The notes below the pieces were generated by a model. The model was not told the origin of the DNA. It ran no database searches and saw only the letters and a program-made list of their open reading frames with translations. Below are positions 13,793 through 64,000 of a DNA stretch of 64,000 nucleotides, one piece after another (the stretch's first letter is position 1; each line of letters starts with the position of its first letter). This DNA comes from Artemia franciscana. Lineage: Eukaryota; Arthropoda; Branchiopoda; Anostraca; Artemiidae. The position numbers were made by a program, and so were the translations under genes. The stretch is from assembly GCF_032884065.1 (NCBI RefSeq), contig NC_088873.1, positions 2,964,563 through 3,028,562 of the forward strand, read 5' to 3'.

Positions 13793-13958
13793 CTAGCTGT
13801 TGGGGTGGCGCTTCGCGCCACCCCAACACCTAGTTCGTGGGGGCGCTTCGCGCCCCCCCCAAGCCCCCCCACGCGCGTAAGTCGTTACGCGCCATATTAG
13901 TTACGCGCCATTGTAGTTGTGTCCCTATGTCCCACCTGTGAATATATATATATATATA
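13793..13958 (-). mobile_element. Helitron 3' domain, followed by (AT)n
   Basis: Complete double-hairpin 3' domain in minus orientation. CTAG at 13793-13796 abuts the 5' end of the preceding copy with no spacer. It then runs into a short (AT)n in which the next copy is inserted. Confidence 0.85.
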
Positions 13959-14242
13959 CTAGCTGTTGGGGTGGGGCTTCGCGCCCCCCCCCAAGCCCCC
14001 CCGCGTGCGTAAGTCGTTACGCGCCATAATAGTTACGCGCCATTGTAGTTGTGTCCCTATGTCCCACCTGTGAATATAGATATATATATATATATATATA
14101 TATATATATATATATATATATATATATATATATATATATATATATATATATATATATATATATATATATATATATATATATATATATATATATATATATA
14201 TATATATATATATATATATATATATATATATATATATATATA
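13959..14242 (-). mobile_element. Helitron 3' domain with a fused single hairpin and long (AT)n
   Basis: CTAG at 13959. Only one hairpin remains: GGGGTGG of the outer hairpin is joined to GGCTTCGCGCC of the inner one, so a deletion between the two has left a chimera. A 165-bp (AT)n (about 14078-14242) follows. The remainder of this copy is probably the sequence resuming at 16289, split by the copy inserted at 14243. Confidence 0.8.
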
Positions 14243-16288
14243 CTAGCTGTTGGGGTGGCGCTTCGCGCCACCCCAACACCTAGTTGGTGGGGGCGCTTCG
14301 CGCCCCCCCCAAGCCCCCCCGCGCGCGTAAGTCGTTACGCGCCATAATAGTTACGCGCCATTGTAGTTGTGTCCCTATGTCCCACCTGTGAATATAGATA
14401 GATATATATATATGGTTTTAACTACGTAAAACTTGCGAATATACAACATTCTTTGCTGTCCCATTGTCTTTGCATATAAATAGATTGTCAGGTTTACCGA
14501 CTCTTGAACATGCAACATATAATGGTCCATGGGAAAACAATCTGTATTCAGATCTATACCTCATGATTCTAATGATTGCCCTTGAGCTTTGTTGATGGTG
14601 ATTGCTAATCGACCATTCCCTGTCCCGGTGTCCCGGTCGTCATTTACATCCCCCTGTTTCCCCCGGTGTCCCCGTTGTAGTTGTGTCCCTGTGTCCCGGT
14701 CGTCATTTATATTCCCTGTGTCCCGGGTCCCGGTCGTCATTTGTATCCCGGTGTCCCGGTCTGTATATACATTCGTTTTTTAGTTTTGTTTTTCTCCTTT
14801 ATTTTTTTCTTTTTTTTTCTTTTTTAGCTTATTTAGATTTTTATATTTTTTAGTTTTTTTATTAGTTTTTAGTTTTTTTTTCTTTTTAGTTTTTTTGTCC
14901 CGGTCGTCATTTATATCCCCCTGTTTCCCCCGGTGTCCCCGTTGTAGTTGTGTCCCTGTGTCCCGGTCGTCATTTATATTCCCTGTGTCCCGGTCGTCAT
15001 TTGTATCCCGGTGTACCGGTCTGTATATACATTCGTTTTTTAGTTTTGTTTTTCTCCTTTATTTTTTTCCTTTTTTTTTCTTTTTTAGTTTATTTAGATT
15101 TTTAGATTTTTTAGTTTTTTTATTAGTTTTTAGTTTTTTTTTCTTTTTAGTTTTTTTGTAGTTTTTACCTTCTTTTTAGTTTTGTTAATTTTTTTTTTTA
15201 CTTGTGTCCTGGTCGTCATTTATACTCCCTGTGTCCCGGTGCTTTGTTGATTGCTAATCGAACATTCCTTTTGTCCTGGTCGCTTTCTCTTTGAGTGTCG
15301 TCATTTATTTTTTTCTTTTTTAGTTCTTTTAGTTTTTACCTTTTTTAGTTTTTTTTAGTTTTTAGTTTTTTTAGTTTTTTACCTTTTTTTAGTTTTTTTA
15401 GTTTTTTTAGTTTTTTAGCTTTTTTATTTTTTTTATTAGTTTTTAGTTTTTTTGTAGTTTTTGCCTTTTTTTTAGTTTTTTTAGTTTTTTAGCTTTTTTA
15501 TTAGTTTTTAGTTTTTTTTTGTAGTTTTTGCCTTTTTTTAGTTTTTTCAGTTTTTTAGCTTTTTTATTTTTTTTATTAGTTTTTAGTTTTTTTTTGTAGT
15601 TTTTGCCTTTTTTTAGTTTTTTCAGTTTTGACGTCACCTGATCCAGTTTTTTCAGGTGACGTCACCTGATCCACGATCCACAGATCCACAGACAACTTAT
15701 TTTTATATATATAGATAGTTTTTTTTTTTTTACTTATGTCCTGGTCGTCATTTATACTCCCTGTGTCCCGGTGCTTTGTTGATTGCTAATCGAACATTCC
15801 TTTTGTCCTGGTCGCTTTCTCTTTGAGTGTCGTCATTTATTAGTTTTTTCCTTTTTTTTTTAGTTTTTTATTGGTTTTTACCTTTATTTTAGCTTATTTT
15901 TCAGTTTTTTCCTTTTTTTTTAGTTTTTTTTTATTTTTTATTTTTTTTTAGTTTTTTACCTTTTTTTAGTTTTTTTAGTTTTTTTAGTTTTTTAGCTTTT
16001 TTACTTTTTTTATTAGTTTTTAGTTTTTTTTTGTAGTTTTTGCCTTTTTTTAGTTTTTTCAGTTTTTTTTTTAGTTTTTTATTGGTTTTTACCTTTATAG
16101 TTTTTTTAGTTTTTTAGCTTTTTTATTTTTTTTATTAGTTTTTAGTTTTTTTTGTAGTTTTTGCCTTTTTTTAGTTTTTTCAGTTTTGACGTCACCTGAT
16201 CCAGTTTTTTCAGGTGACGTCACCTGATCCATCCATCCATCCATCCATCCATCCATCCACAGACAGACAACTTATTTTTATATAGATA
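14243..16288 (-). mobile_element. Composite Helitron type I (two stacked 5' ends)
   Basis: Minus orientation. The double-hairpin 3' domain starts at 14243 and is followed by AT, the helicase remnant (about 14418-14615), two minisatellite arrays (about 14618-14772 and 14898-15030), T-rich arrays and a complete 5' end at 15715 with the CCACGATCCACAGATCC variant. Beyond it lies another internal segment (ATAGTTTTT, then the CTTATGTCCTGG minisatellite edge) and a second 5' end at about 16288. The 15715 junction is the same as at 18176, 38865 and 42413. The element sits in the (AT)n of 13959-14242. Confidence 0.8.
14418..14615 (-). pseudogene. Helicase 3'-end remnant typical of the non-autonomous Helitrons
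   Basis: A representative of a roughly 200-bp segment present in most full copies (also about 16305-16500, 20185-20382, 25695-25900, 36770-36970, 39730-39925, 45895-46090, 50825-51024, 52655-52845 and 63010-63195). It corresponds to the last 60-odd codons of the helicase at 36100-36290 (INKAQGQSLE...VVYSQVLRS stop). All copies I compared share an in-frame stop after QSLES and a one-base loss in the CCCATGG region, so none can encode the helicase C-terminus. Confidence 0.85.
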
Positions 16289-61427: not shown

Positions 61428-62996
61428 CTAGCTGTTGGGGTGGCGCTTCGCGCCACCCCAACACCTAGTTGGTGGGGGCGCTTCGCGCCCCCCCCAAGCC
61501 CCCCCGCGCGCGTAAGTTGTTACGCGCCATAATAGTTACGCGCCATTGTAGTTGTGTCCCTATGTCCCCACCTGTGAATATAGATATATATATATATATA
61601 TGGTTTTAACTACGTAAAACTTGCGAATATACAACATTCTTTGCTGTCCCATTGTCTTTGCATATAAATAGATTGTCAGGTTATCCCCCTGTTTCCCCCG
61701 GTGTCCCCGTTGTAGTTGTGTCCCTGTGTCCCGGTCGTCATTTATATTCCCTGTGTCCCGGGTCCCGGTCATCATTTGTATCCCGGTGTCCCGGTCTGTA
61801 TATACATTCGTTTTTTAGTTTTGTTTTTCTCCTTTATTTTTTTCCTTTTTTTTTCTTTTTTAGCTTATTTAGATTTTTAGATTTTTTAGTTTTTTTTATT
61901 AGTTTTTAGTTTTTATTTCTTTTTAGTTTTTTTGTCCCGGTCGTCATTTATATCCCCCTGTTTCCCCCGGTGTCCCCGTTGTAGTTGTGTCCCTGTGTCC
62001 CGGTCGTTATTTATATTCCCTGTGTCCCGGTCGTCATTTGTATCCCGGTGTACCGGTCTGTATATACATTCGTTTTTTAGTTTTGTTTTTCTCCTTTATT
62101 TTTTTCCTTTTTTTTCTTTTTTAGTTTATTTAGATTTTTAGATTTTTTAGTTTTTTTATTAGTTTTTAGTTTTTTTTTCTTTTTAGTTTTTTTGTAGTTT
62201 TTACCTTCTTTTTAGTTTTGTTAATTTTTTTTTTTACTTGTGTCCTGGTCGTCATTTATACTCCCTGTGTCCCGGTGCTTTGTTGATTGCTAATCGAACA
62301 TTCCTTTTGTCCTGGTCGCTTTCTCTTTGAGTGTCGTCATTTATTTTTTCTTTTTTAGTTCTTTTAGTTTTTACCTTTTTTAGTTTTTTTTTAGTTTTAG
62401 TTTTTTTAGTTTTTTACCTTTTTTTAGTTTTTTTAGTTTTTTAGCTTTTTTATTTTTTTTATTAGTTTTTAGTTTTTTTGTAGTTTTTGCCTTTTTTTTT
62501 AGTTTTTTGTCCTGGTCGCTTTCTCTTTGAGTGTCGTCATTTATTAGTTTTTTCCTTTTTTTTTTAGTTTTTTATTGGTTTTTACCTTTATTTTAGCTTA
62601 TTTTTCAGTTTTTTTCCTTTTTTTTATTTTTTTTTTATTTTTTATTTTTTTTAGTTTTTTACCTTTTTTTAGTTTTTTTAGTTTTTTTAGTTTTTTAGCT
62701 TTTTTACTTTTTTTATTAGTTTTTAGTTTTTTTTTGTAGTTTTTGCCTTTTTTTAGTTTTTTCAGTTTTTTTTTTAGTTTTTTATTGGTTTTTACCTTTA
62801 TAGTTTTTTTAGTTTTTTAGCTTTTTTATTTTTTTTATTAGTTTTTAGTTTTTTTTGTAGTTTTTGCCTTTTTTTAGTTTTTTCAGTTTTGACGTCACCT
62901 AATCCAGTTTTTTCAGGTGACGTCGTCACCTGACACATCCATCCACACATCCATCCATCCATCCATCCACAGACAACTTATTTTTATATATATAGA
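61428..62996 (-). mobile_element. Helitron type D
   Basis: Complete: CTAG 61428, type D junction near 61680, minisatellite with GGGTCCCGGTCATC as at 22940, 5' end 62996. The palindrome near 62925 has a 3-bp duplication (GTGACGTCGTCACC). One extra C in the CCCCACCTGTG of the 3' domain. Confidence 0.9.
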
Positions 62997-64000
62997 TATA
63001 TATATGTTTTTAACTACGTAAAACTTGCGAATATACAACATTCTTTGCTGTCCCATTGTCTGTGCATATAAATAGATTGTCAGGTTTACCGACTCTTGAA
63101 CATGCAACATATAATGGTCCATGGGAAAACAATCCGTATTAAGATCTATACCTCATGATTCTAATGATTGCCCTTGAGCTTTGTTGATGGTGATTGCTAA
63201 TCGACCATTCCCTGAGTCGCCATCGTCATTTATATATCCCCCTGTGCACCCCGGCGTCCCCTTTGTAGTTATGTCCCTGTGTCCCGGTCGTCATTTATAT
63301 TCCCTGTGTCCCGGTCGTCATTTGTGGCCCGGTGTTCCAGTCTGTGATTTCTCTTTGAGTGTCCCGGGCGTCATTTATATTCCTTGTGTCCCGGTGTCCC
63401 GGTCGTCATTTATATCCCCCTGTGCCCCCCGGCGTCCCCATTGTAGTTGTGTCCCTGTGTCCCGGTCGTCATTTATATTCCCTGTGTCCCGGTCGTCATT
63501 TGTATCCCGGTGTCCCGGTCTGTATATACATTCGTTTTTTAGTTTTGTTTTTCTCCTTTATTTTTTTCCTTTTTTCTTTTTTTTCTTTTTTAGTTTATTT
63601 AGATTTTAGATTTTTTAGTTTTTTTATTAGTTTTAGTTTTTTTGTAGTTTTTACCATTTTTTTAGTTTTTTTAGTTTTTTTTTTTTACTTATGTCCTGGT
63701 CGTCATTTATACTCCCTGTGTCCCGGTCGTCATTTGTGTCTCGGTGCTTTGTTGATTGCTAATTTATATTATATTTATATTTATATTTTTTATATTTATT
63801 AATATTTTTTTAGTTTTCTTTTTCTCTTATTTTTCCGTTTTTTCCTTTTTTTTAGTTTTTTCTTTTTTAGTTTTTAGTTTTTTTTTTTGTTTTTTACCTT
63901 TTTTTAGTTTTTTTAGTTTTTTTAGTTTTTTTAGTTTTTTAGCTTTTTAGTTTTTTTATTAGTTTTTAGTTTTTTTTTAGTTTTTGCCTTTTTTTAGTTT
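62997..64000 (-). mobile_element. Helitron type II portion, continuing beyond the window
   Basis: Short AT, helicase remnant (about 63010-63195), minisatellite (about 63200-63530), T-rich arrays and the TATATTTAT stretch (about 63765-63810), closely following 39720-40720. The window ends in the T-rich array before any 5' end. Confidence 0.8.

Follow-up and report, generated by a model that had tools for sequence, protein, structure and literature searches.

The window analysed here is a stretch of 64,000 nucleotides of Artemia franciscana DNA (NC_088873.1, positions 2,964,563 to 3,028,562; part of contig C11 in a genome of 1.27 Gb in 6,468 contigs). From about 13 to 64 kb it is packed by one family of Helitrons, whose copies carry an internal (AT)n tract and are nested in one another. 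Read from 5' to 3', an element consists of a 5' end, an A-rich body filled with repeats, a helicase remnant, the (AT)n tract and a 3' block. The 5' end is TC(TATC)TATATATATAAAAATAAGTTGTCTG, the tip after TC(TATC) also being given as TATATATATAAAAATAAG, and TATATATATA is present at this tip. The remnant is that of a PIF1-type helicase C-terminus and terminates in GTAGTTAAAAMC; between the (AT)n and the 3' block there is usually CTATCTAT or CTAT. The 3' block, TCACAGG...CAACAGCTAG, measures 149 bp in most copies and contains two strong hairpins and a CAGCTAG end; folded as DNA, the 3' terminus of one copy reaches -35.5 kcal/mol (z -10.5). The 5' TC and 3' CTRR of canonical Helitrons are thus present in the TC(TATC)TATATATATAAAAATAAG and CAGCTAG ends. 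Two subfamilies, Y (aactaTtatgg) and O (aactaAtatgg), stand one 3'-block base apart and differ also in the helicase remnant. The features that define the element and its tract are the following:

51154 to 51218, plus strand: 3' terminus with two hairpins and CTAG (folding energy)
35145 to 36625, plus strand: older, less deleted copy with PIF1 helicase coding sequence (PF05970, 3.5e-20; PF21530, 2.2e-18), helicase C-terminus, short AT and 3' block
1081 to 1229, plus strand: long internal tract, uninterrupted, 149 bp, flanked by a truncated helicase remnant on one side and a 3' block on the other
265 to 363, no strand: AT99 without insertion, no family tag being found in the 45 bp to its left or right, taken as non-self

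The family is a large group of canonical-type Helitrons, mostly non-autonomous and about 1.5-3 kb long in the window. It is probably mobilised by RepHel Helitrons of the same genome, where Rep domains are abundant: all 150 scored candidates (of 7,435 first-look candidates) lie above the cut-off for PF14214, many with long open frames, and the same domain search was positive in none of 14 control genomes. Scans of viral and prokaryote contigs gave no matches to the family 3' end. Some copies carry a poly-A followed by a second 5' end, and the identical internal junction recurs at window positions 15715, 18176, 38865 and 42413 and at the fetched loci L039, L042, L045 and L054; these copies seem to be composites that have two or more 5' termini and spread as a unit. 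Insertion between A and T, which the sequence-only reading had taken as established, holds: A flanks the 5' end and T the 3' end in 23/23 automatically paired ends, some of them mispaired across nested copies, and T begins 18 of the 20 window 3' flanks, the remaining two lying after mutated ends. The TT target of Helentron/HINE (Helitron2) elements was not found at the paired ends. Insertion without target duplication agrees with these ends and with the joined outer copies described below, which align through the joint, although inside (AT)n itself a lack of duplication cannot be told.

In the older copy at 35145-36625, the helicase coding sequence runs into the same helicase end, AT and 3' block, which places the internal tract just 3' of helicase sequence. 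Among 59 distinct uninterrupted copies from the window and the fetched loci, the same kinds of sequence bound the tract, while its longest pure AT run is 6-32 bp in 38, 33-63 bp in none and 64-178 bp in 21; the tract is therefore truly internal and its length unstable. Near-identical copies differ clearly in this length. Most intact Y copies of the window have short tracts of 12-32 bp, and interrupted tracts, when their two sides are added, belong to the long class.

The sequence-only reading had rejoined four split copies across insertions in such interrupted tracts. The outer halves below were assigned by their diagnostic base (for 37680-38001, the O-type base) and by joined alignment:

13959 to 14242, minus strand: 3' half of an interrupted Y copy, with a shortened 3' block (13959-14073) and 169 bp of mostly AT
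14243 to 16289, minus strand: inner Y copy in the AT tract, oriented as the outer; 3' block 14243-14391, helicase remnant 14414-14640, 5' end at 16289
16290 to 18994, minus strand: 5' half of the 13959-14242 copy, ending in helicase remnant 16300-16526 and AT10
37680 to 38001, minus strand: 3' half of an interrupted O copy, with AT203
38002 to 39719, minus strand: inner copy with an internal deletion, its 3' block fused to the repeat body, without helicase remnant
39720 to 41385, minus strand: 5' half of the 37680-38001 O copy
51219 to 52906, plus strand: 5' half of an interrupted O copy, with AT58 and helicase remnant 52641-52847; the copy that ends at 51218 has broken the 5' tip of this half
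52907 to 54462, plus strand: inner Y copy, oriented as the outer
54463 to 54673, plus strand: 3' half of the 51219-52906 O copy, AT65 and 3' block 54528-54673
54685 to 54832, plus strand: additional 3' block with non-AT DNA on its 3' side, probably the outermost copy of this nest
59635 to 59823, minus strand: 3' half of an interrupted O copy
59824 to 61391, minus strand: first of two inner Y copies
61428 to 62996, minus strand: second inner Y copy, in the same tract as the first
62997 to 64000, minus strand: 5' half of the 59635-59823 O copy, with helicase remnant 63008-63214, leaving the window at its edge

For each pair, the inner element was left out by script, the flanks were joined, and the product was aligned to contiguous copies elsewhere. 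All four alignments pass through the joint into the 3' block: 16289 with 13959 at 98.3% over 802 bp (L006) and 93.4% over 1,035 bp (L055), 62997 with 59635 at 91.1% over 495 bp (L036), 51219 with 54463 at 90.3% over 648 bp (L033), and 39720 with 37680 at 85.3% over 600 bp (L037); some of the 127 alignments classed as spanning stop within AT. The diagnostic base of the outer 3' block agrees with the subfamily of the far helicase half in 4/4 pairs: the 3' blocks at 37680, 54528 and 59635 are O and that at 13959 is Y. All five inner 3' blocks have the Y base, so that inner and outer subfamilies differ in three of the four outers, and all five inner copies are oriented like their outer. The outer copy at 59635-59823 and 62997 onward holds two inner elements, not one. 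The four proposed reunions are confirmed in this way, and the nesting of family copies is real.

Other copies of the window meet AT tracts or each other in further arrangements:

24183 to 26070, plus strand: Y copy whose 3' end abuts a 381-bp, once-interrupted AT tract reaching an inverted truncated helicase remnant (26451-26547), an opposite-orientation nesting
44066 to 49257, minus strand: three Y copies head to tail with AT spacers of about 95 and 94 bp; a further AT stretch of about 78 bp separates them from a plus-strand copy at 49335-51218
13793 to 13941, minus strand: 3' block with its CTAG against TATATATATAAAAATAAG, which is where an older copy (13013-13792) has its 5' tip

The window 3' end at 36625 likewise sits in an opposite-orientation internal tract (reassigned by hand); the AT tract there, 36630-36741, turns into a GT repeat (36742-36767) beside an inverted helicase remnant. 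The 3' ends at 13793 and 51218 are examples of ends that adjoin TATATATATAAAAATAAG without TC, which means that the copy entered the 5' tip of another copy. The 5' tip is thus a second self-target, one that was absent from the sequence-only reading. A 3' end within 9 bases of AAAAATAAGTTG gives 1,725 strict matches genome-wide, an upper figure for its pattern as five among 100 listed places are direct CTAG|TC joins, and one that misses divergent tips. We considered whether the 3' block at 13793-13941 and the inverted remnant at 26451 form one outermost copy round 12.5 kb; this pairing is possible but is not claimed, since its 5' end was not found, and it is weakened by the block not being notably similar to the 1234-1379 block of its twin.

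How regularly AT adjoins the family was first judged on the window. After its 20 3' ends, uninterrupted TA of at least 10 bp follows 13 and of at least 20 bp follows 8; of its 21 5'-end matches, which include several internal 5' copies within composites, 7 have AT of at least 10 bp before them. The statement that nearly every 3' end adjoins AT was therefore too strong. Its companion, that these flanks are internal tracts of other copies, is correct for some; some are 5' tips, others, between head-to-tail or head-to-head copies, are of unclear origin, and at other loci some flanking (AT)n has no family sequence at its far end. AT flanks on the 5' and 3' sides showed no correlation (both 6, 5' only 3, 3' only 7, neither 7; n=23; Fisher P 0.67), in a test spoiled by mispaired ends in nests, from which only the A|T count was used. 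In the whole genome, 21,317 exact matches to the 27-base 3' end were counted, and 9,065 of them (42.5%) run on into at least 20 bp of TA; a reversed control pattern gave 0 for both counts. TA of at least that length follows 3,527,538 A|T sites, about 2.9% of the total. Insertions are thus concentrated in long (AT)n, at about 15 times the level of A|T sites generally, an approximate figure because the AT-dinucleotide rate was derived from 162,610 bases around family copies. The internal tract does serve as a real insertion target, and (AT)n is preferred.

The family also supplies a considerable share of this target. AT tracts of at least 20 bp number about 123,816 genome-wide (70,186 starting with A and 53,630 with T, as given by the forward and reversed-control counts), with a mean length of about 77 bp when this number is combined with the 3,527,538 sites. 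Of these, 12,036 (9.7%) start at the exact helicase end and 26,001 (21%) at that end with up to 3 mismatches, some of which possibly fall within the AT part; 5,888 have the 3' block, in one exact form, at their end. On the insertion side, 9,065 tracts touch an exact family 3' end and 5,823 touch one exact 5'-end form. If insertion is blind to the origin of a tract, internal-tract tags should be as frequent at the far ends of struck tracts as among all other non-insertion ends. Genome-wide, the expected rate is 17,924/~232,744 (7.7%). For contig C1, over its first 12.88 Mb, it is 146/~2,392 (6.1%) at the genome mean tract density, or 7.9% at the lower density of the contig's first 2.3 Mb. This stretch has 72 three-prime and 46 five-prime insertion ends, 19 of which face another insertion end and were left out. 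Among the 99 usable ends, 6 (6.1%) meet an exact internal-tract tag (one three-prime end on a helicase end, two five-prime ends on a helicase end and three five-prime ends on a 3' block), a test of low power with a 95% interval of about 2-13% (computed for 6/100). The proposed self-seeding, in which the cluster feeds on tracts of its own making, is not borne out as a preference, as own copies were not struck beyond their target share in this low-powered comparison; this is the outcome that the sequence-only reading had itself named as counting against the loop, here at low power. The loop survives in a weak, passive sense, since the family owns about 10-21% of AT tracts of 20 bp and longer, and every long-tract copy raises a supply of some 124,000 targets by one.

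Taken together, we consider it quite likely that the family targets AT microsatellites, with self-nesting as a by-product and a feedback loop that looks passive. New copies enter between A and T in either orientation and favour long (AT)n, to which they may be attracted by, for example, easy melting or a nucleosome-free state. The internal (AT)n of 6 to 178 bp, together with TATATATATA at the 5' tip, puts earlier copies among the targets. Since the element itself carries both, earlier copies become available, and nests and clusters like those of the window follow; since the rate of insertion into own tracts fits their share of all AT tracts (with exact tags, on 12.88 Mb and at low power), self-recognition is unneeded.

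Several observations weigh against this explanation. The proportionality rests on six events, old outer copies escape the exact tags, and own tracts may be struck modestly more or less often than expected; adjacency, moreover, meant lying within 450 bp by coordinates, with the intervening DNA unread. When C1 sequences were judged by eye, 6 of the 18 three-prime ends with at least 20 bp of AT lay in own internal tracts, above the share of 10-21%, in a small sample with divergence allowed and loci picked non-randomly around exact 3' ends. Its 36 three-prime ends fall into 8 in own internal tracts (L032 and L036- assigned by hand), 7 in 5' tips (L055 1176, L057 3001 and L053 3160 by hand), 2 direct CTAG|TC joins (L040, L051), 6 with AT and a whole 5' end, 2 tail to tail, 5 in non-self AT of at least 20 bp and 6 others. 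Insertion ends sharing a tract form about 9 pairs, with about 2.8 expected from the counts (Poisson P 0.002), so that AT tracts are not equal targets; this excess may reflect tract length or local chromatin. Finally, 3 of the 56 three-prime ends in fetched DNA run straight into TC, as tandem products would.

A stronger form of feedback would make the internal tract a favoured or maintained landing pad, with own tracts struck beyond their share and nesting driving the growth of the family. The dense nests of the window, the 9.7% (exact) to 21% (up to 3 mismatches) of AT tracts that the family provides and the 6/18 hand-corrected C1 tract insertions into own tracts speak for it, but we hold it to be improbable, considering that the coordinate test found 6/99 with 6.1-7.9% expected, that the intact Y copies of the window mostly have short tracts and that a nested insertion breaks its host copy. 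Three-prime ends alone fall below expectation, with 1/72 in a helicase-tagged tract (in opposite orientation) and 0/100 in a 3'-block-tagged one. An adaptive role for the internal (AT)n, as a portable landing pad that would spare host genes and retain insertions within the family's own copies, is likewise improbable. AT flanks that grew by slippage after insertion from a short TATA at the junction would be a consequence rather than a target. The clear variation of tract length among near-identical copies agrees with such growth, yet the far side of many tracts is a fixed boundary of other copies (a helicase end or 3' block), showing that the tract predates the insertion, and the 9,065 and 5,823 tracts counted above, among ~123,816, touch an exact 3' or 5' end; slippage as the origin of the flanks is therefore very unlikely.

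Orientation bears on the remaining alternative, that the nests are tandem products of rolling-circle replication, of end bypass or of unequal crossing-over between AT tracts, instead of independent insertions. The head-to-tail train with similar AT spacers at 44066-49257, the paired 3' blocks 54528/54685 and 13793/13959 and the five inner copies that all follow the orientation of their outers would suit such an origin, and same-orientation nesting was considered as its sign. This was dropped as the main cause because a wider sample is mixed: insertions into internal tracts are 2 same and 4 opposite in the coordinate test, and 8 same and 8 opposite by sequence in the window and C1 after hand correction, where two of the 8 same-orientation cases (13959, 54673) could be duplicated 3' blocks. 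The insertion pairs that share a tract (5 head-to-tail, 3 head-to-head and 1 or 2 tail-to-tail) are near the random 2:1:1. Mixed orientations and pair counts fit independent insertion into a palindromic target and speak against tandem replication or crossing-over being the main source. Opposite orientations are common outside the four outers, inner and outer subfamilies mismatch in 3/4 of them, and most joins have an AT spacer or a broken 5' tip. Direct CTAG|TC joins without AT occur at window 44066 (minus strand) into a related 5' end and at L040 3001 and L051 8144 into the family's own, the 3/56 given above, and make up 5 among the 100 listed places of the 3'-end/AAAAATAAGTTG pattern; such a join, however, also arises when a copy enters an A|T site just ahead of an older copy. 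Solo 3' blocks also occur. A tandem origin is largely refuted for the nests that were checked and is unlikely as a general account, but some tandem products are possible, and they may account for the 3' blocks found alone and for the direct joins.

The window and fetched loci contain other elements near AT tracts. At 22085-22603, a piece of PIF1 helicase (PF05970, 6.4e-26) leads into a 3' end of another Helitron-like kind (CAGTTAG, in reverse orientation). This end adjoins AT29 and a Y copy, and the AT tract there seems to be shared with a second Helitron family. A repeat starting catgaaaagagaaatc adjoins AT tracts at L043 1767, L055 2435 and L045 662, once the internal tract of a family copy, and the element may use or carry (AT)n. 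Elsewhere in the window, non-LTR retrotransposon pieces lie at 29452-32414 (minus strand) and 9128-9952 (plus strand), with endonuclease (PF14529) and reverse transcriptase (PF00078) domains. A cysteine-rich, gag-like protein is present in two copies, 98% identical over 199 amino acids, and the copy at 31692-32414 has no Pfam match. An ankyrin-repeat coding stretch (PF12796) with an in-frame (GATAGT)7 array inside occupies 12445-13011, beside an old Helitron copy.

Currently, the family offers a measurable case of a transposon that spreads its own preferred target, with about 10-21% of long AT tracts coming from one family, and target supply and feedback in transposon ecology become testable by counts. 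If the internal tract were indeed a landing pad, the family, as the source of up to a fifth of the long AT tracts, would itself have created a large part of its niche, and long-tract copies would be the hubs of nest growth. For annotation, clusters of AT-flanked Helitrons can pass wrongly for tandem arrays or single long elements.

Canonical Helitrons insert at A|T. The family resembles them (Helitron1 type) in its 5' TC, its 3' CTAG behind a hairpin, its A|T insertion and its PIF1-type helicase remnant, and it differs from them in combining a strong (AT)n preference with a variable internal (AT)n; our literature search found no report of a Helitron with both internal (AT)n and (AT)n targeting. 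Coates reportedly described in 2010 lepidopteran Helitron-like elements that disrupt (GAAA)n, a microsatellite association as here with a different repeat unit. Among better described systems, the FoHeli Helitrons of Fusarium oxysporum share with the family self-insertion, copies inserted beside the 5' end of another copy and composites with several 5' termini, as far as the accessible part of the paper describes them; FoHeli has Helitron2-like termini, however, FoHeli1 and 2 enter between TNAT and A, and a term search of the accessible text gave 0 occurrences of microsatellites (PMC5148889). DINE-1/HINE Helentrons, in the accessible account, are likewise very abundant, non-autonomous, rolling-circle elements that may carry a microsatellite, but they use a TT target and also have subterminal inverted repeats; the same account attributes tandem arrays of bat and silkworm Helitrons to termination bypass (PMC4067079). 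Targeting of (TA)n microsatellites is shared with the DNA transposons MuTAnT, Micron and TAFT; MuTAnT is Mutator-like, and none of the three is described as a Helitron in the accessible text (PMC4486113). According to work cited in a review, Helitrons insert preferentially in the vicinity of other Helitrons, and microsatellites serve as landing pads (PMC12477314). In the Artemia family the nesting is real and well developed, the element is of a known type, and microsatellites are strongly preferred.

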